Shown here one piece after another: positions 4,641-26,906 of a stretch of DNA of 35,140 bases. How positions within the stretch are numbered: the stretch's first letter is position 1; the number at the start of each line of letters is the position of its first letter. This DNA is from Leptospiraceae bacterium (GTDB lineage Bacteria; Spirochaetota; Leptospiria; Leptospirales; Leptospiraceae): NCBI GenBank assembly GCA_947458405.1, contig CANGZW010000027.1, positions 1-35,140 on the forward strand, in the 5' to 3' direction. Under the pieces are notes generated by a model that was not told where the DNA came from, did no database searches, and saw nothing but the letters and a program-made list of their open reading frames with translations. Made by a program: the position numbers and the translations under genes.

Positions 4641-5830
4641 AAATTAAATTTTTCAACTACATGTTCGGCAAAAGGAAAAGAAGCAGTAAACGCAGGTGAT
4701 ACAGCATTCAATACATGAGTAGAAAATGTATCACCTTCTATCAAAAAATCCGAGACCAATTTTTTATCTTTAATGTGAATTAATTGGGCTCTGATTCCAA
4801 CTTTTCCCCATGTTTTAAAATTTTTAGGGTAAATATGATCCGCTAGCTCCATAGCTTTTTTAGCCATGTAATACCTTGAATTTTTTTTAATTTCTTCGAG
4901 TGCCAATTCTCTAAAAGGGAAATTAGCATTAAAAAAGAGTTCAATCTCTCTTTTTCCAATTGATAAAAATTCTTTTAGGGAAAAGGAAGAAAAGCCTTTA
5001 TAATTTTCCCTCCATAATCCAGGAATTGCTGTTGGACCAAGTTTAGCTTTTCTGTCAACAGTCACTGTAACATGCACGCCCAAAAAGGGATTTCTTAGAT
5101 CGGGAACTGGATATATATGTTTTTTAAATCCACCAGGAGCTTCATTTGAATATAAGTAAAGACCTTTAAAAGGGAGAATTTCATAATCACTAGAAAAACC
5201 AAAGTCCTTAGCTATTTTGTCCGCATAGAGTCCACCAGCATTGATAAAATGACCCGGTGTAAAATGATCAGTATTAGTTTTAATTGTATTTTCTTTTGAT
5301 TTACCTAAATATTTTTGATCATAGATAATTGTAATACCTTCTTTTATTGCATCTTGTTGTAGAGATGTCAATACTTCAATAGGATCTACACTGGAAGTTT
5401 TAGGAGAAAATAGTGCTTTTTTAAAAGTTTTTACTCTTGGTTCTAATTCTTTAGCTTCCTTTTCAGTGAGCTCATGGATATCAATTTCATTTATTCTACC
5501 CCTTTCAAATAGAGTTTTCATCTGATCTAAATCTTTCTCATCCTTTGCAACAACTAATTTACCGCATTGATTAATTGACAATTTTTTTGTAAGACAATAA
5601 TCAGTTAAAAACTCATTTCCTTTTTTTGTGAATTTAGCCTTTAGACTTTCAGGGGTATAATAAAAACCGGCATGTAGTACACCACTATTTCTTCCACTTG
5701 CATGATACCCTATAGTTTTTTCTTTTTCAAGAAGAGTTATTTTTAATTTTTTATTTTTTTTCTTAAGGGTTAGGGCTATGGCTGTTCCAATTATTCCCCC
5801 ACCTGTAATTAAAAAGTCTGGATTATTCAT
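4637..5830 (-). CDS. lhgO: L-2-hydroxyglutarate oxidase/dehydrogenase-like FAD protein (LhgO)
   Basis: A 397-residue FAD-dependent oxidoreductase of the DAO family. The family oxidises L-2-hydroxyglutarate to 2-oxoglutarate, passing electrons to oxygen or quinone. The dinucleotide-binding motif ITGGGIIGTAIAL is at 8-20. The LhgO signature HASGRNSGVLHAGFYY (43-58) follows an LEKE segment that should bind the FAD ribose. Later segments such as GHFINAGGLYADKIA and FKGLYLYS match the family, and the length is normal. Its ATG overlaps the TGA of the upstream SpoIIE phosphatase gene as ATGA, so the two should be translationally coupled. Glycerol-3-phosphate dehydrogenase or another DAO-family activity is a less likely alternative. 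Confidence 0.88.
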   Translation of the reverse strand: MNNPDFLITGGGIIGTAIALTLKKKNKKLKITLLEKEKTIGYHASGRNSGVLHAGFYYTPESLKAKFTKKGNEFLTDYCLTKKLSINQCGKLVVAKDEKDLDQMKTLFERGRINEIDIHELTEKEAKELEPRVKTFKKALFSPKTSSVDPIEVLTSLQQDAIKEGITIIYDQKYLGKSKENTIKTNTDHFTPGHFINAGGLYADKIAKDFGFSSDYEILPFKGLYLYSNEAPGGFKKHIYPVPDLRNPFLGVHVTVTVDRKAKLGPTAIPGLWRENYKGFSSFSLKEFLSIGKREIELFFNANFPFRELALEEIKKNSRYYMAKKAMELADHIYPKNFKTWGKVGIRAQLIHIKDKKLVSDFLIEGDTFSTHVLNAVSPAFTASFPFAEHVVEKFNF

Positions 5831-7581
5831 ATCTTAATTATTAATAACGTATAATCATCAGATAATTCAACCATTTGTCTAAAATCATCAACACTTTCTA
5901 CGATTTTATTTTTAATAAATTCTGGACTCATGCTAATATTTTCCATAAAAATAGATATTAATCTCTCTTCTCCAAACATTTCTTTTTTAAAATTAAAACA
6001 CTCTGTAATACCATCAGTATATAATAAAATAACATCACCTGTGTTGAAATCTCTTTCAACTAATTCAAAATTATTAAATTTTAATTTAGATCCCAATGGA
6101 ACTCCCTTCGCTCTGAGAAGTTCAATTTCTTTGGTTTGAGAATTATAATAGATTTGTCTATTATGACCTGCACTTGAATATCTAATTTTAGAATCAAAAA
6201 AATCGATTTGTAAAATCATAACTTCCACATGCATTAATGGTTCAAATTTAGTTTGAAGAATCGTATGACAAGAATTCATACTTTTTGAGGGGGAGATAAT
6301 TTTAGTGATTTCTGCTGAAATAATTGTTTTTGAAAGTTCCATGTAGAGGGCGGCAGGTATTCCTTTCCCTGCAACATCTGCAATTACAAAAGAATAAAAT
6401 CCATCCTTATGATAAATTATATCATAAAAGTCACCACCAATTTCCTTACTACTCACATAGGATTTGGCAAGTTGCATTCCATGTAATTCTTCAGGAATAT
6501 CAATTAAGGAAAATTTTTGAATTTTTCCTGCGATATTTAAATCTCTTTGTAGTAATTTATATTTTTCTTTTTCTTCCCTAGCTATCATTGATTTATAAAC
6601 TTCGGTAATCTGGCTAACCAATATCATCAATAATTTTAAATCATGCTTTTCAAAACTCTTTTTGTTTATTTTGTCGGTAACACTTAATATTCCTTTCATT
6701 TCTTCTTCAAAAAAAACAGGTATTGAAATAAAAGACTTAGTTTTATAACGATCTGTACTACCTATTTTCAAATCATCAGGATGCTGATTACTATCTACAA
6801 AGAGCGGTTCTTTAGTTAAAAATATTTTTTGTATTACTTCACTATTACTTTCATCTAAATAAAATTCTTCATCCGGAACAGGAATTCCTTTATTAAAAAT
6901 TAATTTCCATTTACCTTTTGTATTACTTTTCAAAAAAAATGATACTCTTTCTGCTTCTAAAATTTCAGAAATACACTTTCCTGCAATATTCATAAATTGT
7001 TCAAGATTATATGTATCTTTTAATGCCTGACTTACTAAAAAGAGTCCGTTTATTTCTTTAAGTCTGGATTCTTGTGACACAATTAGTTGTTTATTATGGA
7101 TTGCCATTGCTGCAACTTCACTTAGGAAAGTGAAAATTTTGAGGTCATCTTCACTGAATTCGTCTGTTTCTAGGGAATTGACACCTTCGATTACACCTAC
7201 AATTTTTCCTCTAGTTATCATGGGTGCGGCAATAATATTTCGTGTTTTGTAATTTATATAATTATCAATGTCTCTATAAACCCTATCATCACTTTCTGCG
7301 TTATTAATAATGATAGGCTTTTTGGTACTTAAAACAATTCCAGCCACACCTTTTCCTTTGGGAACCTGAAGAGAGAGGAGCTCCAAACTTTTCTCCCCTC
7401 TGGCAACATGAAAAATTAAATTTTCAATCTCATCATCATATAATAACAAGGAACAACCCTCGCAACTTAAAGCGTTTTTTGTTGTTTCGATAATTGAGCT
7501 TAAAAGAGAATTTAAATCATCTGAATTATTAATTCGATAAACAATATCTGTTAGTTCTTCTAATTTCAAAATTCTTTTCAT
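5827..7581 (-). CDS. GAF-GAF-SpoIIE (PP2C-type) serine phosphatase, RsbU-like
   Basis: A 584-residue cytoplasmic signalling protein. It has two GAF sensor domains (about 12-168 and 185-335), a helical linker with REEKEKYKLLQRDLNIAGKIQ (about 335-356), and a SpoIIE-type PP2C domain (about 365-584). Phosphatase metal motifs are intact: GGDFYD (D384), IADVAGKG (D402), YSSAGHN, YTDGITE (D523) and a C-terminal SDDYTLL. Such proteins usually dephosphorylate an anti-sigma-factor antagonist in partner-switching cascades. No RsbV/RsbW-type partner lies beside it here. The first GAF holds cysteines C40 and C43, which might sense redox, but this is speculation. It is the first gene of a two-gene minus-strand unit with lhgO (ATGA overlap). 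Confidence 0.92.
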   Translation of the reverse strand: MKRILKLEELTDIVYRINNSDDLNSLLSSIIETTKNALSCEGCSLLLYDDEIENLIFHVARGEKSLELLSLQVPKGKGVAGIVLSTKKPIIINNAESDDRVYRDIDNYINYKTRNIIAAPMITRGKIVGVIEGVNSLETDEFSEDDLKIFTFLSEVAAMAIHNKQLIVSQESRLKEINGLFLVSQALKDTYNLEQFMNIAGKCISEILEAERVSFFLKSNTKGKWKLIFNKGIPVPDEEFYLDESNSEVIQKIFLTKEPLFVDSNQHPDDLKIGSTDRYKTKSFISIPVFFEEEMKGILSVTDKINKKSFEKHDLKLLMILVSQITEVYKSMIAREEKEKYKLLQRDLNIAGKIQKFSLIDIPEELHGMQLAKSYVSSKEIGGDFYDIIYHKDGFYSFVIADVAGKGIPAALYMELSKTIISAEITKIISPSKSMNSCHTILQTKFEPLMHVEVMILQIDFFDSKIRYSSAGHNRQIYYNSQTKEIELLRAKGVPLGSKLKFNNFELVERDFNTGDVILLYTDGITECFNFKKEMFGEERLISIFMENISMSPEFIKNKIVESVDDFRQMVELSDDYTLLIIKI

Positions 7582-17269: not shown

Positions 17270-19372
17270 TTAAGCTCTGACTATTTCACTCACATTCAAT
17301 TCAGCTTCCATTTGATCATCTAGCTCAATTGCAACTTGAGTATTATCTTCCTCGTCATCTTCTTCGGAAAATCCACTTTGATACCAGGGCATTTCTGTCT
17401 TATCGGGCAAATCTAATTCATCCTCTTCATTGATATCTTCTTCTTTGATAATTGTTTGCGAGCTAACATTGGAGGGTAAATTTTGAGAAGTATATACTTC
17501 TAATCCTGAGTTAATTTTAACCTTATCAAAATTATTTTCATTCTTAAAATGGATTGTGACCGAATAATTTCCGGGGGGAAGATTTGGTGATTTAAAATCA
17601 ATTTTTCCTTCGGGTAATAGGTTTCCTCTTAATCTATATACCTCATCTTCTTTTTGTAGTACAAGTTCTGTTCCCGGAGGAATTTTTCCAGCTGTGACAA
17701 TGAGAGAAGAATTATCAAAGGATGGAATTTTGGTTGGTTCAAAACTTATAATTTCTAGGCAATTTTCCGTTAGAATTGGAGCAAAGTCATTGTGTAATAT
17801 GTTGATACTTATAAATCCAGGATTTGTTCTTTCTGGCAAAAGAAAGGAAATCGCATTTGAGTTAATAAAATCTATATTGATTGGCTCATTTATATCATCG
17901 ATAAGAATTTTCATATTTTGAACGAATCCTGCTCCTAGAATATGCAGTCTTACATTTTTTTGGTTCACAGGAATATAATAGGGCTTAATTTGATTGATTA
18001 CAATTTTATCAGAAACAAATTTTCCTGTTATATAACCAGTCTGACTCACTCCCAAAAGACCCAAAAAAGAGGATGGAATATCGGGAAGTCCGGCCAAGGG
18101 ATTCGAATTTAACAGATTATACATATATATGATAATTCCAACAATGGTGAAAGAAAATAATTGAAGTCTGGGTAAATCTATGGATTCACCCGAACTAAAC
18201 AAGTTATTTAAAAGAGGAGGGGTTTTCAAAATTTCATTTTTGGGTTTTTTGGAACCTAGACTATGGGCAGTGATAAGTCCGCCATAACTTATCGAAAGTA
18301 ATCCAATCAAGGAGGGATTAAATTCCGGTATTATACCATTTCCTAAAAGAACACCGGAAGATATTGTAATATAAAAATATCCTCCCAACAATAGAACAGT
18401 CCAGGAAAATGCCTGAAACCTTGACAAACTATATGTATTAGTAGCTTTGTCTATGAGCAATAAACTTAAATAATTTTTCTTTTTTAAAATTTTAACTATA
18501 AAAATATGTAATAAACTTATTAATGCTATTGTGAAGCCCAACATCCATAGCTTCCAATAATCTGATAGTATTACTAATTTTTTATAATCACTGGGTCTAC
18601 CATTGACAAAGATTCTAAGGTAAAGATTTTGTTTGAATAAGAATGTACCGGGGATTATTTTTGTTGATGGCATATTAAATTTTAGTTCTTGTGTACTACC
18701 ATTTAAGATAGGAGAAAGATAAAATGGTTTTCTTTCTCCTACATCAATAATGCCTTCTTCCTCTTTGTCATTTAATTCTCCAAAAGATACAGAAATTAAA
18801 TCCAGGTCATTTCCAAAATTTTCTCCAATTATCGTAATTGTGTCACTACCTTTTCCGGCTTCTGGATTTAAAACTTGAATAAATGGTTGTTTACCCGGAG
18901 AGGAGTTTCTATTGGGAACTTCTATTTCTTTTGTAGCTTCTAAGGTTATTTGATCCTCATTTTTGTAAGAATAAATATTAAATATCTTAAGTCCCGAATC
19001 TATTTTTTGTTTTGTTTTTATTAGAAATTCTACACTATTTTGGTCTTGGAGGTTTGTTTTAGCCGAATTATTGATATATATAGCCTTGGTTGTTCCTATT
19101 TCAAAAGAATATTTTTTTGGTTTTGTGCCACCAAGTGCTTCCACAAAGTCACCAGATTTTTTTACCTTAATTTTAATTTTATAAATATCCTTAGAAATAT
19201 CCTTTGGAGTGAATTCTTCAATAACAAATTGGCTCGGTTTTGAAATCTTAGCAGGCTCTTCTGCATTAATTTTAGAATTCGTTAAATTAAAAAATAGCAA
19301 ACAAAAAGAGATAAGAGCTGAATTTATTGTTTTAAAGACTTTTAGTTTATTACTCATGAATTTTTTTAACAT
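17270..19372 (-). CDS. Large TIG-domain membrane protein with duplicated membrane module
   Basis: A 700-residue envelope protein. AAAGGA 6 bases upstream supports ATG at 19372. A signal peptide or anchor covers about 10-37. A periplasmic region follows with a TIG/IPT Ig-like domain (about 162-265, starting PFIQVLNPEAGKGSDTITII). Transmembrane helices lie at about 274-292, 320-342, 353-372, 404-421 and 433-450. Two units look duplicated: LSRFQAFSWT...PEFNPSLIGLLSISYGG (316-365) and LPRLQLFSFT...PDIPSSFLGLLGVSQTG (400-446). A second TIG-like region (about 463-540) and a third beta domain (about 550-620) come next. The acidic tail is rich in E and D. Function is unknown; TIG domains usually mediate binding. 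An SDR gene lies 19 bp upstream. Confidence 0.83.
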   Translation of the reverse strand: MLKKFMSNKLKVFKTINSALISFCLLFFNLTNSKINAEEPAKISKPSQFVIEEFTPKDISKDIYKIKIKVKKSGDFVEALGGTKPKKYSFEIGTTKAIYINNSAKTNLQDQNSVEFLIKTKQKIDSGLKIFNIYSYKNEDQITLEATKEIEVPNRNSSPGKQPFIQVLNPEAGKGSDTITIIGENFGNDLDLISVSFGELNDKEEEGIIDVGERKPFYLSPILNGSTQELKFNMPSTKIIPGTFLFKQNLYLRIFVNGRPSDYKKLVILSDYWKLWMLGFTIALISLLHIFIVKILKKKNYLSLLLIDKATNTYSLSRFQAFSWTVLLLGGYFYITISSGVLLGNGIIPEFNPSLIGLLSISYGGLITAHSLGSKKPKNEILKTPPLLNNLFSSGESIDLPRLQLFSFTIVGIIIYMYNLLNSNPLAGLPDIPSSFLGLLGVSQTGYITGKFVSDKIVINQIKPYYIPVNQKNVRLHILGAGFVQNMKILIDDINEPINIDFINSNAISFLLPERTNPGFISINILHNDFAPILTENCLEIISFEPTKIPSFDNSSLIVTAGKIPPGTELVLQKEDEVYRLRGNLLPEGKIDFKSPNLPPGNYSVTIHFKNENNFDKVKINSGLEVYTSQNLPSNVSSQTIIKEEDINEEDELDLPDKTEMPWYQSGFSEEDDEEDNTQVAIELDDQMEAELNVSEIVRA

Positions 19373-21144: not shown

Positions 21145-21225
21145 TTACTCTGAGGATAGTTTAGACCTTACAGAAGATTGACAGAGAAGTCTGTCGGCAC
21201 TTATGTTACGCCCAAACCTGTTCAA
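21145..21225 (-). repeat. Candidate dispersed-repeat remnant in intergenic space
   Basis: An 81-bp stretch with about 42% G+C sits in flanks of much lower G+C. On the minus strand one frame is open from a TTG at 21225 to TAA at 21145 and reads NRFGRNISADRLLCQ then SSVRSKLSSE. It also contains the inverted repeat GACAG (21180-21184) / CTGTC (21191-21195). Composition and the isolated open frame suggest a decayed or miniature mobile sequence; no second copy is in the window. Confidence 0.4.
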
Positions 21226-21261: not shown

Positions 21262-22569
21262 TCAATTATTTTTAATATAATTTATTAAAGATTCTTTTTC
21301 ATTAAAATGTGGAAATTCAATTATATAAGAAAGACATTTTTTTAAGATATTTCCATATTCTCTGTTATTTAATTCAGGGAAATTTTCTTTTAGATCTATA
21401 CCTGAAATTTTTAATTCTTTTAATGTCAGAGGTGGATTCGTATTCATTATATTTATAAATTCATCTTTAAATAATAATACATCATTCATAGTTAATAAAA
21501 CAAAAGAAAGAGACAAAAGCCCATTTGTGTAGTTATTGATTTCAACTATTTCACCTGTATTGATACTAAATTCAGATAAAAGTTTTCGTAATGAAAGCGA
21601 GGAATTTGAGTTTAATTCCTTAGTAAAATTATTATCAATTAATTTATAAATAATATTATAATAGTAAATAGAGAATTTAATGATTTCATTTGAAAATTTT
21701 AAATTTTTTAATAGTTGTTCTAATTTTTTTGAATCTACATTTTTATTAAAAAGTACGACAAAAAATAAATAACTTATTCTAACAGATATTGGATTTTTAG
21801 ACAATCTTCCTAAGTTTTTATTTGCATCAATATACAAATTTTCAGTGATATCTAATTTCCAAAATAAAGAAAAATATCCTAATTTTGACAACTCATATAT
21901 TCCATTTTCAGGAAATTCTGAATTTAGTATTTTTAATAACTCATCATGAAATCTTTCGGTAGATATTTTTTTGGTAATATGTTTTGTTTTTTCTAAAGCT
22001 AAATATGTATTTTCATCAACTTTAAAACCTAGAATAGTCATAAATCGTATGCATCTAATAGGTCTAAGACCATCTTCCGTGAATCTTTCTATAGGACTCC
22101 CAATGGTTTTTATATTCTTATTTTTAATATCCTCCAATCCATTTTGAAGATCTATTAACTTATTATTAATTAAATCAAGAGCTATTGAATTAATTGTAAA
22201 ATCTCTACGTAGTACATCTTCTTCTAACGTATTACCAAATTCAATTGTATCGGGATGTCTTCCATCTGAATATCCCTGATCTTTTCTAAATGTAGTAATT
22301 TCATAAGAATTTTCTCCAATTAATATCGTTACAGTTCCGTGTTTTATACCCGTATCAATAACTCGTTTAAATATTGTTTTCACTTCTCCTGGGTACATTG
22401 AAGTTGTTAGATCAAAATCTTTGGGGATTTTTCCCATCACTAAATCCCTAACGGATCCCCCGATTAAATAGGAAATTTTACCCCGTTTTAGAATTTCACT
22501 TTGGATAAAAATTAAATTTTTTAGATGTTTCTCTTCTATAAGAGAAATAATATTTTCAAGTGAGGGCAT
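21262..22569 (-). CDS. CCA-adding / poly(A) polymerase-type nucleotidyltransferase (class II)
   Basis: A 435-residue class II tRNA nucleotidyltransferase-superfamily enzyme, which adds or repairs the 3' CCA of tRNA or adds poly(A). The head domain has LIGGSVRD (35-42) and the catalytic DFD (D51, D53). KHGTVTI and YEITTFR follow. EEDVLRRDFTINSIA (116-130) and RFTEDGLRPIRCIRF (162-176) are the neck/ATP-recognition motifs. The rest is helical. The motif style resembles Bacillus-type CCA-adding enzymes, but CCA addition, A addition only, or poly(A) activity cannot be separated by eye. It is the last gene of the minus-strand operon, starting 1 bp after the small gene upstream. Confidence 0.9.
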   Translation of the reverse strand: MPSLENIISLIEEKHLKNLIFIQSEILKRGKISYLIGGSVRDLVMGKIPKDFDLTTSMYPGEVKTIFKRVIDTGIKHGTVTILIGENSYEITTFRKDQGYSDGRHPDTIEFGNTLEEDVLRRDFTINSIALDLINNKLIDLQNGLEDIKNKNIKTIGSPIERFTEDGLRPIRCIRFMTILGFKVDENTYLALEKTKHITKKISTERFHDELLKILNSEFPENGIYELSKLGYFSLFWKLDITENLYIDANKNLGRLSKNPISVRISYLFFVVLFNKNVDSKKLEQLLKNLKFSNEIIKFSIYYYNIIYKLIDNNFTKELNSNSSLSLRKLLSEFSINTGEIVEINNYTNGLLSLSFVLLTMNDVLLFKDEFINIMNTNPPLTLKELKISGIDLKENFPELNNREYGNILKKCLSYIIEFPHFNEKESLINYIKNN

Positions 22570-22570
22570 G

Positions 22571-22855
22571 TTATAAATTAATTTGAGAACTAAATTCTAA
22601 TAATTTATCGACTACAGCATCTCTTAGAATTTCTTCTGTAATACGACCACTTATTTCGATAGAATTTTTTTGTTTATATCTAGCCGGTAAACTATTCATT
22701 AAATCAATATAAAAATCTTTAAATTTATCTTCAGACCAAGTAATATTTTTGTATTTTGGAATTTCTTCTTTTAGAATTTTTTTAAGTCTTCTTTCATTGG
22801 AATTTCTTATATCCCCAGTCCATTTTGTAAGACGAATAATTTTTTCTTTTTTCAT
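22571..22855 (-). CDS. Small protein of unknown function (94 aa) between fur-like and CCA genes
   Basis: A 94-residue basic protein starting MKKEKIIRLTKWTGDIRNSN. The longer frame opens at 22870, but the ATG at 22855 overlaps the TGA of the Fur-family gene as ATGA. Three further junctions upstream use the same arrangement, so I chose it. The sequence is helical and charged, with KWTGDIRNSNERRLKKIL and ISGRITEEILRDAVVDKLLEF. No signal peptide or membrane helix is present. The family is not recognised. Its position between a repressor and an RNA nucleotidyltransferase, and its basic character, would allow RNA or DNA binding, but nothing proves it. Confidence 0.75.
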   Translation of the reverse strand: MKKEKIIRLTKWTGDIRNSNERRLKKILKEEIPKYKNITWSEDKFKDFYIDLMNSLPARYKQKNSIEISGRITEEILRDAVVDKLLEFSSQINL

Positions 22856-23274
22856 TTGCAATTCCCGCAAATACCTTTAACGAGTATTTCAACAGAGCGA
22901 ATTTGATAATCTCCGGCTTCTTTAATTGCAAAGTGAAACATTTCATCAATTAAACATTCCATTCTTCCGCAGACTTCACAGGTTATATGTGCATGTTCTT
23001 TTAAAGTATCAATAATTTCAAAAAAAGTTGTTCTTTCTTTAGAAAGTAATGATTTAATTATTTTTTTTTCTTCAAACTCACTTAAGGTTCTATAAATTGT
23101 AACTCTGTCCCAATTTTTTTCTGAGTCGAGTTTTTCCATAATTTCTGAGTGAGAGAGTGGTTTGTGGGATAATAATAAAATATTGAATACGGCTACTCTT
23201 GTTTTTGTGATTTTTAAATGATTATCTTTAAGGGATTTTTCAATTTTTTCATCATTTGATAATTCTAGGGGCAT
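22852..23274 (-). CDS. Fur-family metal/peroxide-responsive repressor
   Basis: A 140-residue Fur superfamily regulator. The winged helix spans about 10-85, with the recognition segment NWDRVTIYRTLSEFEEK. The dimerisation/metal domain has the structural zinc cysteine pairs C99/C102 (CEVC) and C136/C139 (CGNC). H94 and H96 in EHAHITC are metal-site candidates. Four cysteines suit Fur, Zur or PerR, and the subtype cannot be decided. A short stretch between the wing and the CxxC is compressed relative to canonical Fur (FFEIIDTLKEHAHITC). The gene lies 1 bp after the lipoprotein gene and overlaps the next gene by ATGA, so it is an internal operon gene. Confidence 0.93.
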   Translation of the reverse strand: MPLELSNDEKIEKSLKDNHLKITKTRVAVFNILLLSHKPLSHSEIMEKLDSEKNWDRVTIYRTLSEFEEKKIIKSLLSKERTTFFEIIDTLKEHAHITCEVCGRMECLIDEMFHFAIKEAGDYQIRSVEILVKGICGNCK

Positions 23275-23275
23275 G

Positions 23276-23677
23276 TTATTTTTTCTCAGATATTTCGTTC
23301 CAAATTATACGGTACTTGACTCCTAAATATATGTCTTTTTTTAGTAATTCCCTTATTTTTTCGTCTTTATCTGACTGAATAAATAATTTCATAAATGGGA
23401 AATCTTTTTTTTGAGATAAAATGGAAATAATTTCATCTTCAGAAATATTTTTAGCTTCCAGGCATTTATCTTTATAATCCACTCCTTTGTAGCCCGCACA
23501 AAAAGTTGCCGCTTTAATATAATCACCCTCACTGAGGGCTCCATAAATCTCTTTCTCCAATGGATCCTTGTTGCAATTTGTTATTAGGAAAAGGATAATA
23601 AAAAAATATGTTATGAATTTTGAAAAGGAATAGTTACTGACTAAAAATTTTTGAAATTTAAAATACCGAATTATCAT
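23276..23677 (-). CDS. Small predicted lipoprotein
   Basis: A 133-residue protein with a long basic N-region (RYFKFQKFLVSNYSFSK), a hydrophobic core and the lipobox-like LFLITNC. Lipidation at C35 is likely, after which ~98 residues would be exposed on a membrane. The mature part contains two cysteines (C59 and C73) in FCAGYKGVDYKDKCLEA, which could form a disulfide. It is otherwise helical (DEKIRELLKKDIYLG). No family is recognised. Its ATG overlaps the stop of the tail-anchored protein gene (ATGA, 23674-23677) and it ends 1 bp before the Fur-family gene. Confidence 0.78.
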   Translation of the reverse strand: MIIRYFKFQKFLVSNYSFSKFITYFFIILFLITNCNKDPLEKEIYGALSEGDYIKAATFCAGYKGVDYKDKCLEAKNISEDEIISILSQKKDFPFMKLFIQSDKDEKIRELLKKDIYLGVKYRIIWNEISEKK

Positions 23678-24744
23678 TTCTTTATAAATGAGGAAAGTAG
23701 TACTCCAATTAATAATATTAATACAACGAGAATAAAGTAGAGTAAGGTGTTTGATTTATGAATCTCCTCTTTAAAATCATCGTCGCTCGGCACAGAAATT
23801 TTAACGGGGTTTTTTTCAATCGCATGCAATACTACGCCGTTTGATCCAGTGGCGAATATATGAAATTCCTTTTTAGGAGAGGTTAGAATTTTAAAAAATT
23901 TTCCAATGATTGGCTTAAATTTACCTTTGTCATCAATCCCCCCTAAATCTCTTGCAATTGATTGTTCTTCAGAAGTAGTTACCGGTAGATTAAAAAATAT
24001 CGCTTGTCCTTCTTTTAATTTAGCAAACTCCATTCCATTGAGAGGTGAAATACCTACATTGCAAGAAACTACTCTACTAAAGCCTTTGAAAATTTCCTGG
24101 AGGGTTCCATTGAATATATCTAAAGGATTCTCACCATTTTCTGCATTGGTATCCTTTTCCATTTCTACAATGTCAGGTATAAATGGATTTCTTACTGCTG
24201 GATAAGTGGATTTAAGTTTATTTTTATCATAAAAGTCCAAAGAGTTCATTTTTTCGATATCAATTGTGCTTCTCAGTGCCTTGATACTTGTTTCCTGTTT
24301 AACTGCTTCTTCCATATAGGTTGTAAATTCTTTGGTTTGTTTTAGTTCGATTTGAGAAATAAATTCGATTACTTTTTCATGGGGTAGGGAGCGAAAAATA
24401 GCTCTCCCAATTCTTTCGGAAAGTGTATCTTCAATACCACCCCCCCGAACTGCCTTTTCTAAATCCAAAATCATACCGTCAAAATTTTCAAAAGGATTAA
24501 TTTTGCGAAGTATTCCCGATGTTCCAAAAATGGAGTACATGGTGATAATTTTTCTTGTTCCCTCGGCCATAATAAAATAGATAAAACCATTTTTTCCGCT
24601 CATATCTATATAGAGTTTAATGAGATAAACATCTTTTTTTACACGAGATATAACTAAATCAGCATCCTCAGGAGTCTCAACAGACTCCCAAGTTAGTTTT
24701 ACATATTCTTCAGGGTTATTTATGTTTTCGCCGGGGTTACTCAT
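23674..24744 (-). CDS. Tail-anchored protein of unknown function (356 aa)
   Basis: A 356-residue protein without a signal peptide. Most of it appears cytoplasmic and ends in one hydrophobic helix (about 334-352, TLLYFILVVLILLIGVLLSSF) followed by IKK, which is a tail-anchor arrangement. The N-terminal half has beta-rich stretches (DVYLIKLYIDMSGKNGFIYFI). A middle region holds LSERIGRAIFRSLPHEKVIEFI. The later part carries FNLPVTTSEEQSIARDLGG and FHIFATGSNGVVLHAI. No known domain is recognised. ATGA overlaps link it to the GHKL ATPase gene upstream and the lipoprotein gene downstream, which argues for linked stoichiometry and a shared role at the inner membrane. Confidence 0.78.
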   Translation of the reverse strand: MSNPGENINNPEEYVKLTWESVETPEDADLVISRVKKDVYLIKLYIDMSGKNGFIYFIMAEGTRKIITMYSIFGTSGILRKINPFENFDGMILDLEKAVRGGGIEDTLSERIGRAIFRSLPHEKVIEFISQIELKQTKEFTTYMEEAVKQETSIKALRSTIDIEKMNSLDFYDKNKLKSTYPAVRNPFIPDIVEMEKDTNAENGENPLDIFNGTLQEIFKGFSRVVSCNVGISPLNGMEFAKLKEGQAIFFNLPVTTSEEQSIARDLGGIDDKGKFKPIIGKFFKILTSPKKEFHIFATGSNGVVLHAIEKNPVKISVPSDDDFKEEIHKSNTLLYFILVVLILLIGVLLSSFIKK

Positions 24745-25505
24745 TTAATTCCAAGATCACGAAGAACTTCCTCCCGGGACATTCCAGAATCCAATTTTTC
24801 TTGGAATCGATGTCTGAGCGGCTTGTAATCTGGGTTTAAAGGAACTTCAAGTCTAGCTGTGGTTTGGTTTTTTTCTTTGTCGTTATATATAGTAAATAAA
24901 TGACGGTCATATCCAGATTGAGCAAGCATTATTTCTACAAGAGTAATACCCATTCCAGCTCCCTCGGTATTATCTCCGTGATCCATATAAAACTGGAAAA
25001 GATTGTCGTACTTTTGAGCATTATGAAATTTTTGTCTTACCCTATCTTCTTCTCTTGGAAGAAGGGGAAAGTTATTTGTAATACTCATTATAATATGGTT
25101 ATCATTGTAATTGAATTTAATACTGACTAAGAGACCCTTTTCTTTCATTTTTCCTTTGTAAAAAGGAAATTTTTTATCTGTTAGATTTTCTTTGAACTGA
25201 CCCATCACTTCATCATATTTGGATTCATCAGTTTGGCTTACATTGTTTTCTTCAAATAAGATTCTCTTGATAGCCGCTTTGGTAGAGTTTGCAATTAGTT
25301 CTTTTGCAGAAGTATAAAAGAGCTCCATTAAATCTTCCCGATTGAAGGAAGCAAGAATAGACTGTAAGATATACTTTAATTTAGCTTCTCCTGAATCTCC
25401 AAGAACTCTGGTTAAAAAATTCAGAGGGGCTCTTCTGGATACAGCTGTATCTACTTTTTTGCAAAACGATGATTTTAAAAGTGGATCTAGCTCTTCAGTG
25501 TTCAT
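24741..25505 (-). CDS. Histidine-kinase-like (GHKL) ATPase domain protein without phosphoacceptor domain
   Basis: A 254-residue soluble protein. An N-terminal helical part (1-60) leads into a GHKL ATPase fold. The N-box is LMELFYTSAKELIANSTKAA (59-78; E69, N73) and the G2 box is TEGAGMGITLVEIM (180-193; G182, G184, G186). The G1 position reads MSITNNFPLLP (140-150), where kinases usually have DxGxG, so adenine recognition may be altered. There is no HisKA/DHp dimerisation helix pair or H-box. It is therefore an ATP-binding protein or anti-sigma-like kinase rather than a normal sensor kinase. The C-terminus RHRFQEKLDSGMSREEVLRD may be a docking segment. It is the first gene of the ATGA-linked operon with the tail-anchored, lipoprotein and Fur genes. 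Confidence 0.82.
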   Translation of the reverse strand: MNTEELDPLLKSSFCKKVDTAVSRRAPLNFLTRVLGDSGEAKLKYILQSILASFNREDLMELFYTSAKELIANSTKAAIKRILFEENNVSQTDESKYDEVMGQFKENLTDKKFPFYKGKMKEKGLLVSIKFNYNDNHIIMSITNNFPLLPREEDRVRQKFHNAQKYDNLFQFYMDHGDNTEGAGMGITLVEIMLAQSGYDRHLFTIYNDKEKNQTTARLEVPLNPDYKPLRHRFQEKLDSGMSREEVLRDLGIK

Positions 25506-25565: not shown

Positions 25566-26906
25566 TCATTTTAATATTTTATTAATTATTTCGTATACAG
25601 CTTTTATGTCGGCAGAACTCTTAAAAATATCGTTTTGAAATTTTTTATTTGTATTAAAAATTTCAGCATTGTGGAATTTTACTTTAAATTCTGTGAATTT
25701 TAACCCATTTGCAGTAGAAATAACCACTACGGTATCCTTTTCTGTTATTATTTCCTTACTCCTTAGCTTTTTTAGAGCCGCAAGTGCAACTCCTGTGTGT
25801 GGATCATTATAAAGTCCATATAAATCTCCTTCAGCTGCAGAATCTGACAATTCTTCTTCACTGGCATCTTCCACCACACCTTCAAACTTATTTAGGATTC
25901 GAATTGCTTTTTTTACAGACACTGGATTTCCAATTTGAATGGCTGAGGCGAGTGTTTTTTCAGCGATTTTTGGGGCAAAACCTTCAAATTTATTTAAATA
26001 AGAAAGGTAAAGTGGATTTGCATTGCGAGCTTGGGCTACCGCAATTCTGGGAAGTTTATCAATCATTCCTAGTTCCAGTAGCATTTCAAAACCTACCCCA
26101 AGAGCGGAAACATTTCCTAAATTGCCTCCGGGAATAATGATCCAATCGGGAACCTTCCAATCTAGCTGTTGAACAATTTCGATGGAGATAGTTTTTTGTC
26201 CTTCAATTCTAAGGGAATTCATTGAATTGGCTAGATAAATTGTGGGGTCTTTTGCTACCTCTTGGACGATTTTCATGCAACCATCAAAGTCTGTATCCAA
26301 TGAAATAACCTTTGCTCCATTGGAAACAGGTTGGATCAATTGGGCAGTGGAAACCTTATCTCTCGGTAAAAAAACAATTGTGGGAATTCCTGCTTTTGCG
26401 GCATATGAGGCTAAAGCGGCACTTGTATCTCCTGTACTTGCACAGGCTACTGCTTTGATTGGGGCACCATTTTTTCTCATCTGATTTACATGACTCACTA
26501 AAACAGTCATCCCTAAATCTTTGAATGATCCTGTATGGGATATACCACATTGTTTTATGTATAATTCTTGAATTTTTAAATCTTTCGCCCATCTAGAAGC
26601 CTGAAAAAGATGGGTCAATCCTTCTCCGGAAGAAATGATATTCTCTGTTTTTTGTTCGGGCAAAACAAATTCTCTTTTGCTCCAAATCCCACTGTTATAG
26701 GGAAATCCTGGTTTTCCCCATCTTTCTTGGAATAGATGTTTCCATGACTCCCCTGAGATTTTTTTTAATTCCTGTATATCATGAGTGACCTGAAGGAGTT
26801 CTCCACAGGATTCACAGGAATATATTACCGTTTGAAGGGAATAAGTTTTTCGGCAATCTGGATTTGTGCAGGAAAAATGGGCATGGGGCGAGAGGTTTCC
26901 GGTCAT
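25566..26906 (-). CDS. thrC: Threonine synthase
   Basis: Converts O-phosphohomoserine to threonine with pyridoxal phosphate, the last step of threonine synthesis. The 446-residue protein starts with a zinc-ribbon-like N-terminus (C13, C18, C31, C34), as seen in longer bacterial ThrC enzymes. It continues with the PLP lysine K129 in SHTGSFKDLGM and the phosphate-binding loop ACASTGDTSAALASYAAKAG. WIIIPGGNLGNVSALG then follows, and VVISTANGLKFTEFKVKFH lies near the end. It is a single gene: 60 bp separates it from the GHKL operon. The gene ahead of it is divergent gltB. Confidence 0.93.
   Translation of the reverse strand: MTGNLSPHAHFSCTNPDCRKTYSLQTVIYSCESCGELLQVTHDIQELKKISGESWKHLFQERWGKPGFPYNSGIWSKREFVLPEQKTENIISSGEGLTHLFQASRWAKDLKIQELYIKQCGISHTGSFKDLGMTVLVSHVNQMRKNGAPIKAVACASTGDTSAALASYAAKAGIPTIVFLPRDKVSTAQLIQPVSNGAKVISLDTDFDGCMKIVQEVAKDPTIYLANSMNSLRIEGQKTISIEIVQQLDWKVPDWIIIPGGNLGNVSALGVGFEMLLELGMIDKLPRIAVAQARNANPLYLSYLNKFEGFAPKIAEKTLASAIQIGNPVSVKKAIRILNKFEGVVEDASEEELSDSAAEGDLYGLYNDPHTGVALAALKKLRSKEIITEKDTVVVISTANGLKFTEFKVKFHNAEIFNTNKKFQNDIFKSSADIKAVYEIINKILK

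Follow-up and report, generated by a model that had tools for sequence, protein, structure and literature searches.

Partner-switching modules pair an RsbW/SpoIIAB kinase with a STAS antagonist. The LIC10486 (NF047678) and DUF4899 (PF16240) models describe a protein family without assigned function. In cyanobacteria, ComFB binds c-di-AMP and c-di-GMP, and the known members act in competence and cell size (PMC12313861). Here, an operon bringing together relatives of these proteins, a Fur-family repressor and two enzymes was analysed in a 35,140-nt stretch of a Leptospiraceae bacterium (GCA_947458405.1, contig CANGZW010000027.1), called the window below; its genome is labelled G000 in comparisons. 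The operon was real and conserved, but it looks like a composite and not one dedicated sensor. It was probably assembled in Leptospiraceae by the joining of separable gene sets, a membrane-tethered GHKL switch and a Fur-ComFB-CCA cassette. The first set would comprise thrC and a GHKL ATPase that stands alone; in Leptospiraceae, the putative partner of this ATPase is a tail-anchored DUF4899/LIC10486 protein. In the second, a CCA-type enzyme would be grouped with a ComFB-like protein and a Fur paralog of non-canonical type, and a small exported lipoprotein would go with them more loosely. The first set resembles partner-switching modules in that the GHKL protein stands alone without a DHp domain and that DUF4899 relatives elsewhere lie beside HATPase and DUF4325 STAS-like genes. 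However, the window operon has no STAS gene or sigma factor, and the GHKL protein had no HATPase_c_2 match in the Pfam scan. All STAS-like genes that were found lay next to distant anchored-protein relatives.

Six open reading frames (ORFs) on the minus strand, from 21262 to 25505, were all open and intact. In order of transcription, they encode a stand-alone GHKL-like ATPase of 254 aa without transmembrane (TM) segment or phosphoacceptor domain (24741–25505), a tail-anchored protein of 356 aa of the LIC10486/DUF4899 family (NF047678; 23674–24744), an exported protein of 133 aa that is a putative lipoprotein or else anchored by its N-terminus (23276–23677), a third paralog of the Fur family whose Cys107 stands at the position of the E/D regulatory ligand (PF01475; 22852–23274), a ComFB-like small protein of 94 aa from a cyclic-dinucleotide receptor family (22571–22855), and a CCA/poly(A)-type tRNA nucleotidyltransferase (PF01743; 21262–22569). 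The ATGA overlaps that an earlier note on this DNA had given between these genes (24741–24744, 23674–23677 and 22852–22855) and the two 1-nt gaps (positions 23275 and 22570) were correct; an alternative start of the ComFB-like ORF (TTG 22870) is possible and would lengthen its overlap. Three of its protein descriptions also agreed with the analysis: the ATP-binding protein without phosphoacceptor was GHKL-like, with no DHp domain and no N-terminal His; the protein with a C-terminal membrane anchor had one C-terminal TM; and the Fur-family regulator scored above the PF01475 cut-off and had the Cys4 site. The unit begins one gene before those six, with the threonine synthase gene thrC (25566–26906, minus strand; TIGR00260, 223.1 bits against a cut-off of 167.1). 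Gene thrC was counted in the unit because it lies 60 bp upstream of the GHKL gene and the close spacing was kept in 8/8 Leptospiraceae, the other seven having 2 to 54 bp or a one-base overlap.

The family comparison covered eight Leptospiraceae genomes (G000 and G023 to G029). All seven genes were found in order in G000, G026, G027, G028 and G029, i.e., 5/8 genomes and two of five genera. The last four belong to another genus than the window genome, with protein identities of about 32–59% over the six genes from 21262 to 25505 and of about 70% in the case of thrC, and the recurrence of the order at such divergence is more than chance. The six-gene order was kept in full in these five, but the sets lay apart in G024 and G025, and the anchored-protein gene was absent in G023. 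Genome G023 (75% complete) had thrC-GHKL-lipoprotein-Fur-ComFB-CCA, with 118 bp in place of the anchored-protein gene and no match to that protein anywhere in the genome. In G025, thrC-GHKL-anchor was located at C1:64.8–68.1 kb and Fur-ComFB-CCA at C1:1677.8–1679.7 kb; the lipoprotein gene lay apart from both, at C1:221 kb, immediately behind an RNase H gene. In G024, C6 carried thrC-GHKL-anchor and C34 carried RNase H-Fur-CCA, and no ComFB-like or lipoprotein match was detected in the genome. Both genomes with split sets had Na/H-exchanger-type antiporter genes close to the Fur cassette (L154, 6881–9031; L155, 2130–4127).

Counted by pairs, thrC-GHKL adjacency was present in 8/8 Leptospiraceae, GHKL-anchor in 7/8, Fur-ComFB-CCA in 7/8, the lipoprotein beside Fur in 6/8, and Fur linked to CCA in 8/8, either adjoining or one small gene away. 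In the four-gene tree, the split genome G024 branched off before all others of the family (93/97, not starred). The simplest history, though not a proven one, is that separate sets were joined later.

The thrC-GHKL pairing is the oldest link found in the unit. The adjacency was also present in 18/22 genomes of the sister family; it was absent in G002, G003 and G008, and the locus of G021 ended at a contig end. In several sister-family genomes, the gene after GHKL encodes a protein that matched FapA_N or Jag_N in the two representatives scanned. At loci such as L240 and L243, a TM protein with an APPP motif was observed before thrC-GHKL-FapA_N/Jag_N. In the rest of the class, where G145 was left out and G220 had no thrC match, an A1-type GHKL gene was found within the fetched flanks at 0/16 thrC loci, some flanks ending at contig ends. 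A 56-row tree separated the thrC-linked GHKL proteins of Leptospiraceae from those of the sister family. After four long rows (three G000 paralogs and G010) were dropped, the thrC-linked proteins of both families formed one side of a branch (83/34), by which orthology is neither shown nor rejected.

Alignment of the GHKL protein with its orthologs showed that E69, N73, K76 and the segment G182-A-G-M-G186, with G182, G184 and G186 all invariant, were conserved in 7/7 sequences; we take these to be the N-box (E..N..K) and the G2 box (GxGxG). By eye, N144-N145-F146 was aligned at the place of the expected G1-box DxGxG. No TM was predicted, and the first 75 aa of the window protein contained no His, with none conserved there among the seven sequences. 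Profile scans gave no HisKA-type match, so the protein lacks the DHp phosphoacceptor of a histidine kinase. PDB searches with the GHKL alignment gave nothing useful. The window genome contained seven A1-type GHKL copies, the window protein included, and such matches were found in 190/247 Spirochaetota genomes; the family is thus common, and the specific tie is that to thrC and the anchored protein. Elsewhere in the window, a gene on the minus strand (5827–7581) encodes a GAF-GAF-SpoIIE protein (SpoIIE, 137.2 bits) of the RsbU-like phosphatase type, which could oppose a GHKL kinase.

The anchored protein matched NF047678 over nearly its full length (residues 10–350 on profile positions 11–361 of 363) with 233.1 bits, below the equivalog cut-off of 500. 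It had no DUF4899 match itself, and DUF4899 was matched at E ≤ 0.01 by 13/50 aligned members, one other relative scoring 28.9 against 25. A C-terminal TM was present in 50/50 aligned members and a second hydrophobic stretch in 5/50; the soluble domain is predicted from the sequence to be cytosolic. The structure model built from the 50 rows had a mean predicted local distance difference test score (pLDDT) of 91.7 and a predicted template modelling score (pTM) of 0.62. Foldseek searches with two models gave no match at E ≤ 0.001. The best VIA-align match was eIF5A (Z 6.1, 59 residues, root-mean-square deviation 2.6), a level that is common for the tool; two CheC/CheX rows of one structure search, ranked 26 and 39, were not adopted. 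All that is read from these searches is that the modelled protein appears to have an SH3-like C-terminal barrel, and a new fold is not claimed.

Searching the genome contigs with the anchored protein alone yielded no relative, and with the GHKL alignment six relatives. Anchored-protein relatives were found in 62/247 Spirochaetota genomes. The neighbourhood survey included all 76 places outside the seven blocks, one of them in G024, and 75 gave an ORF. ATPase genes were neighbours of the DUF4899-type gene at 32/75 loci, 21 with the HATPase family and 11 with A1-family GHKL proteins, the latter mostly from one family (f23) and therefore not independent. A CheY-like gene lay directly upstream of the DUF4899-type gene at 17 of 75 loci. 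Scanned representatives of neighbouring genes scored 30.4 bits for DUF4325 and 80.9 bits for Response_reg, and the scanned representative of A1-type GHKL proteins near a DUF4899-type gene was fused to HDOD. The GHKL-DUF4899 pairing, recurring in the phylum in changed company, is the most interesting part of the operon. Tentatively, DUF4899/LIC10486 proteins might be membrane docking partners of stand-alone GHKL ATPases across Spirochaetota, in an undescribed signalling system with versions linked to thrC (Leptospiraceae), to DUF4325 STAS-like proteins behind groESL, and to CheY and GHKL-HDOD; we hold this wider proposal to be possible and somewhat short of even.

Several arrangements of DUF4899-type genes were observed repeatedly. 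A recurring set (L076, L078, L161, L166, L208, L209, L211, L215 and others) consisted of HATPase, DUF4325 STAS-like, a 156-aa protein of unknown type, the DUF4899-type anchored protein and an exported protein, and was preceded in L076 and L078 by groES/groEL-like genes (labelled by eye). At L077, L087, L088, L162, L169, L175, L194 and L198, a CheY-like gene was directly followed by the DUF4899-type gene, with a GHKL gene nearby on the opposite strand. The DUF4899-type gene was divergent from a gene for an FtsX/MacB-type permease (one representative scanned) at L083, L091, L093, L094, L193, L199, L201, L203, L204, L206 and L216.

The Fur-family protein passed PF01475 (51.6 bits against a cut-off of 23.1). 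It resembles Fur in having the Cys4 structural site (C99, C102, C136 and C139, invariant) and Arg62 in H4, but differs in that Cys107 replaces the E/D ligand. The position of Cys107, assigned by alignment to solved Fur, is one we take to equal Fur E101/PerR D104 of model proteins. With Arg62 and Cys107, the paralog is neither canonical Fur (E101) nor canonical PerR (Asn in H4 and D104). The window genome also encodes a canonical Fur-type paralog (C25) and a canonical PerR-type paralog (C24). Cys was present at this position in 8/8 orthologs and 0/18 paralogs of the same genomes (8 Glu, 9 Asp, 1 Ser). Leptospiraceae are not alone in having this type, since the same Cys occurred in 3/3 fetched Bacteroidota repressors; L. 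monocytogenes PerR did not have it. According to PMC8638851, the four Fur-like proteins of L. interrogans have D or E there. By coordinates, a Fur match lay near the CCA gene in none of the 21 sister-family genomes with Fur matches, most being on different contigs, so that this count cannot settle the linkage there.

The window protein scored 13.6 bits against ComFB (PF10719; cut-off 25), and the seven orthologs, window included, ranged from 13.6 to 28.2. Two of them passed the cut-off (G023, 26.7; G025, 28.2), a likeness to the ComFB/CdgR receptors, but the window protein is a short form and its ligand binding is putative. PDB searches with the ComFB alignment gave nothing useful. Second ComFB paralogs were observed elsewhere in the family at L157 (6372–6668, 26.0 bits), L158 (5453–5746, 23.5 bits) and L159 (5546–5836, 43.8 bits), against the same cut-off of 25. 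The CCA-type enzyme scored 127.9 bits for PF01743 (PolyA_pol head; cut-off 23) and 268.6 for the equivalog NF009814, just under the cut-off of 290; a second CCA-type gene was present in the window genome. By scan, G026 and G028 had a class III cyclase gene after CCA, and by eye G029 had one for a similar protein; a GGDEF-EAL gene followed CCA in G027, a cyclase gene lay beside it in G025, and no cyclase gene followed it in the window. These neighbours of CCA are no more than suggestive.

The putative lipoprotein had no confident Pfam family in the scan. Cys35, Cys60 and Cys72 were invariant in 5/5 aligned sequences. By the lipobox rule, a small residue precedes the Cys; the residues before Cys35 in the five sequences were N, N, G, F and F.

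After the last gene, a weak terminator-like hairpin was found at 21180–21195 on the minus strand, one of 6 such sites in the region against 3.7 expected. The number of promoter matches was that of shuffled sequence (30 against a mean of 30.2). A Fur box had been looked for before 25505 as proposed by the earlier note, and also in other upstream regions, with no palindrome beyond chance in the window: Fur-box-like palindromes upstream of thrC, GHKL and Fur were at chance level (0 perfect 7+7). Among the ten upstream stretches searched (an eleventh was too short), none was common to different genomes; G028 had 3 perfect palindromes, two overlapping each other, and 2/200 shuffles reached as many. 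The titles, abstracts and passages of the literature that were covered contained no description of this operon or of DUF4899. Elsewhere in the window, the gene at 17270–19372 (minus strand) encodes a protein of 700 aa that has IPT/TIG domains along with TM stretches seen by eye.

Three other explanations were considered. The earlier note had proposed that the GHKL protein, the anchored protein and the lipoprotein form an envelope sensor with the Fur-family repressor as output. The order of these four genes in 5/8 genomes of two genera speaks for it, and a part of it stood, namely the GHKL-anchor pairing (7/8) with ATPase neighbours across the phylum; a single module did not, as the sets split. 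The arrangements in G023, G024 and G025 show that ATPase, anchored protein and lipoprotein feeding Fur are not obligate: GHKL-anchor is separate from Fur in the latter two, the anchored protein is missing in G023, and the lipoprotein is elsewhere in G025 and was not found in G024. The cytosolic location predicted for the soluble domain of the anchored protein would also make it unlikely that this protein touches a periplasmic lipoprotein directly, and the sensor model as a whole is improbable. A housekeeping operon of convenience, in which one promoter serves thrC, the gene of the CCA enzyme and those of small regulators, with expression level as their only tie, would fit the housekeeping types of thrC and the CCA-type enzyme and modules that separate freely. 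It is rather unlikely, however, as the thrC-GHKL, GHKL-anchor and Fur-CCA pairs persist at 30–70% identity and DUF4899 relatives keep recurring ATPase neighbours elsewhere. Finally, the Fur paralog may be a Zur-like or thiol-based redox sensor that under stress controls both the repair of tRNA and cyclic-dinucleotide signalling. Such a role is compatible with the composite operon; it agrees with the Cys at the E101/D104-equivalent ligand in orthologs and not in family paralogs, with the same Cys in Bacteroidota repressors and with the constant Fur-CCA linkage, but the ligand role comes from alignment only, no operator was found in the upstream palindrome search and no regulon is known, so that we give it about one chance in four.

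The composite operon itself has to be weighed against several observations. The HATPase_c (PF02518) score of the window GHKL protein was 16.6 bits, below the cut-off of 26.4 (orthologs: G028, 15.4; G025, 21.1; G024, none among the matches listed), and no partner protein of GHKL was identified in this analysis. The sister family has thrC-GHKL without a DUF4899-type anchored relative in any of 22 genomes. Of the DUF4899-type loci, 43/75 had no ATPase neighbour, some ending at contig ends, and at 11 loci an FtsX/MacB-type permease was found instead. A single co-regulated function would explain the close spacing of the window genes equally well. A secondary split of a once-joined operon is possible, since joined genomes outnumber split ones (thrC-GHKL lies with the second set in 6/8 Leptospiraceae) and the place of G025 in the four-gene tree was not settled (joined group 50/86).

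If the joined sets act as proposed, the seven genes would be co-transcribed, and the anchored protein would contact the GHKL ATPase and place it at the inner membrane. By analogy with partner switching, the ATPase may then be an ATP-dependent switch on a protein partner and not part of a phosphorelay. The Fur paralog may bind metal or react through its extra Cys and so tune its own cassette. The ligand read by the ComFB-like protein may be c-di-AMP or c-di-GMP.

As the dissection of this operon shows, closely overlapping genes in a single genome can be a misleading guide to function. A third type of Fur, marked by the variant Cys, is also brought out; in 8/8 Leptospiraceae examined, its gene is linked to that of a tRNA-repair enzyme. 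If the GHKL-DUF4899 pairing is true, it would give the first functional handle on a phylum-wide family, present in L. interrogans as LIC10486, and would point to a membrane-tethered ATP switch in spirochaetes.

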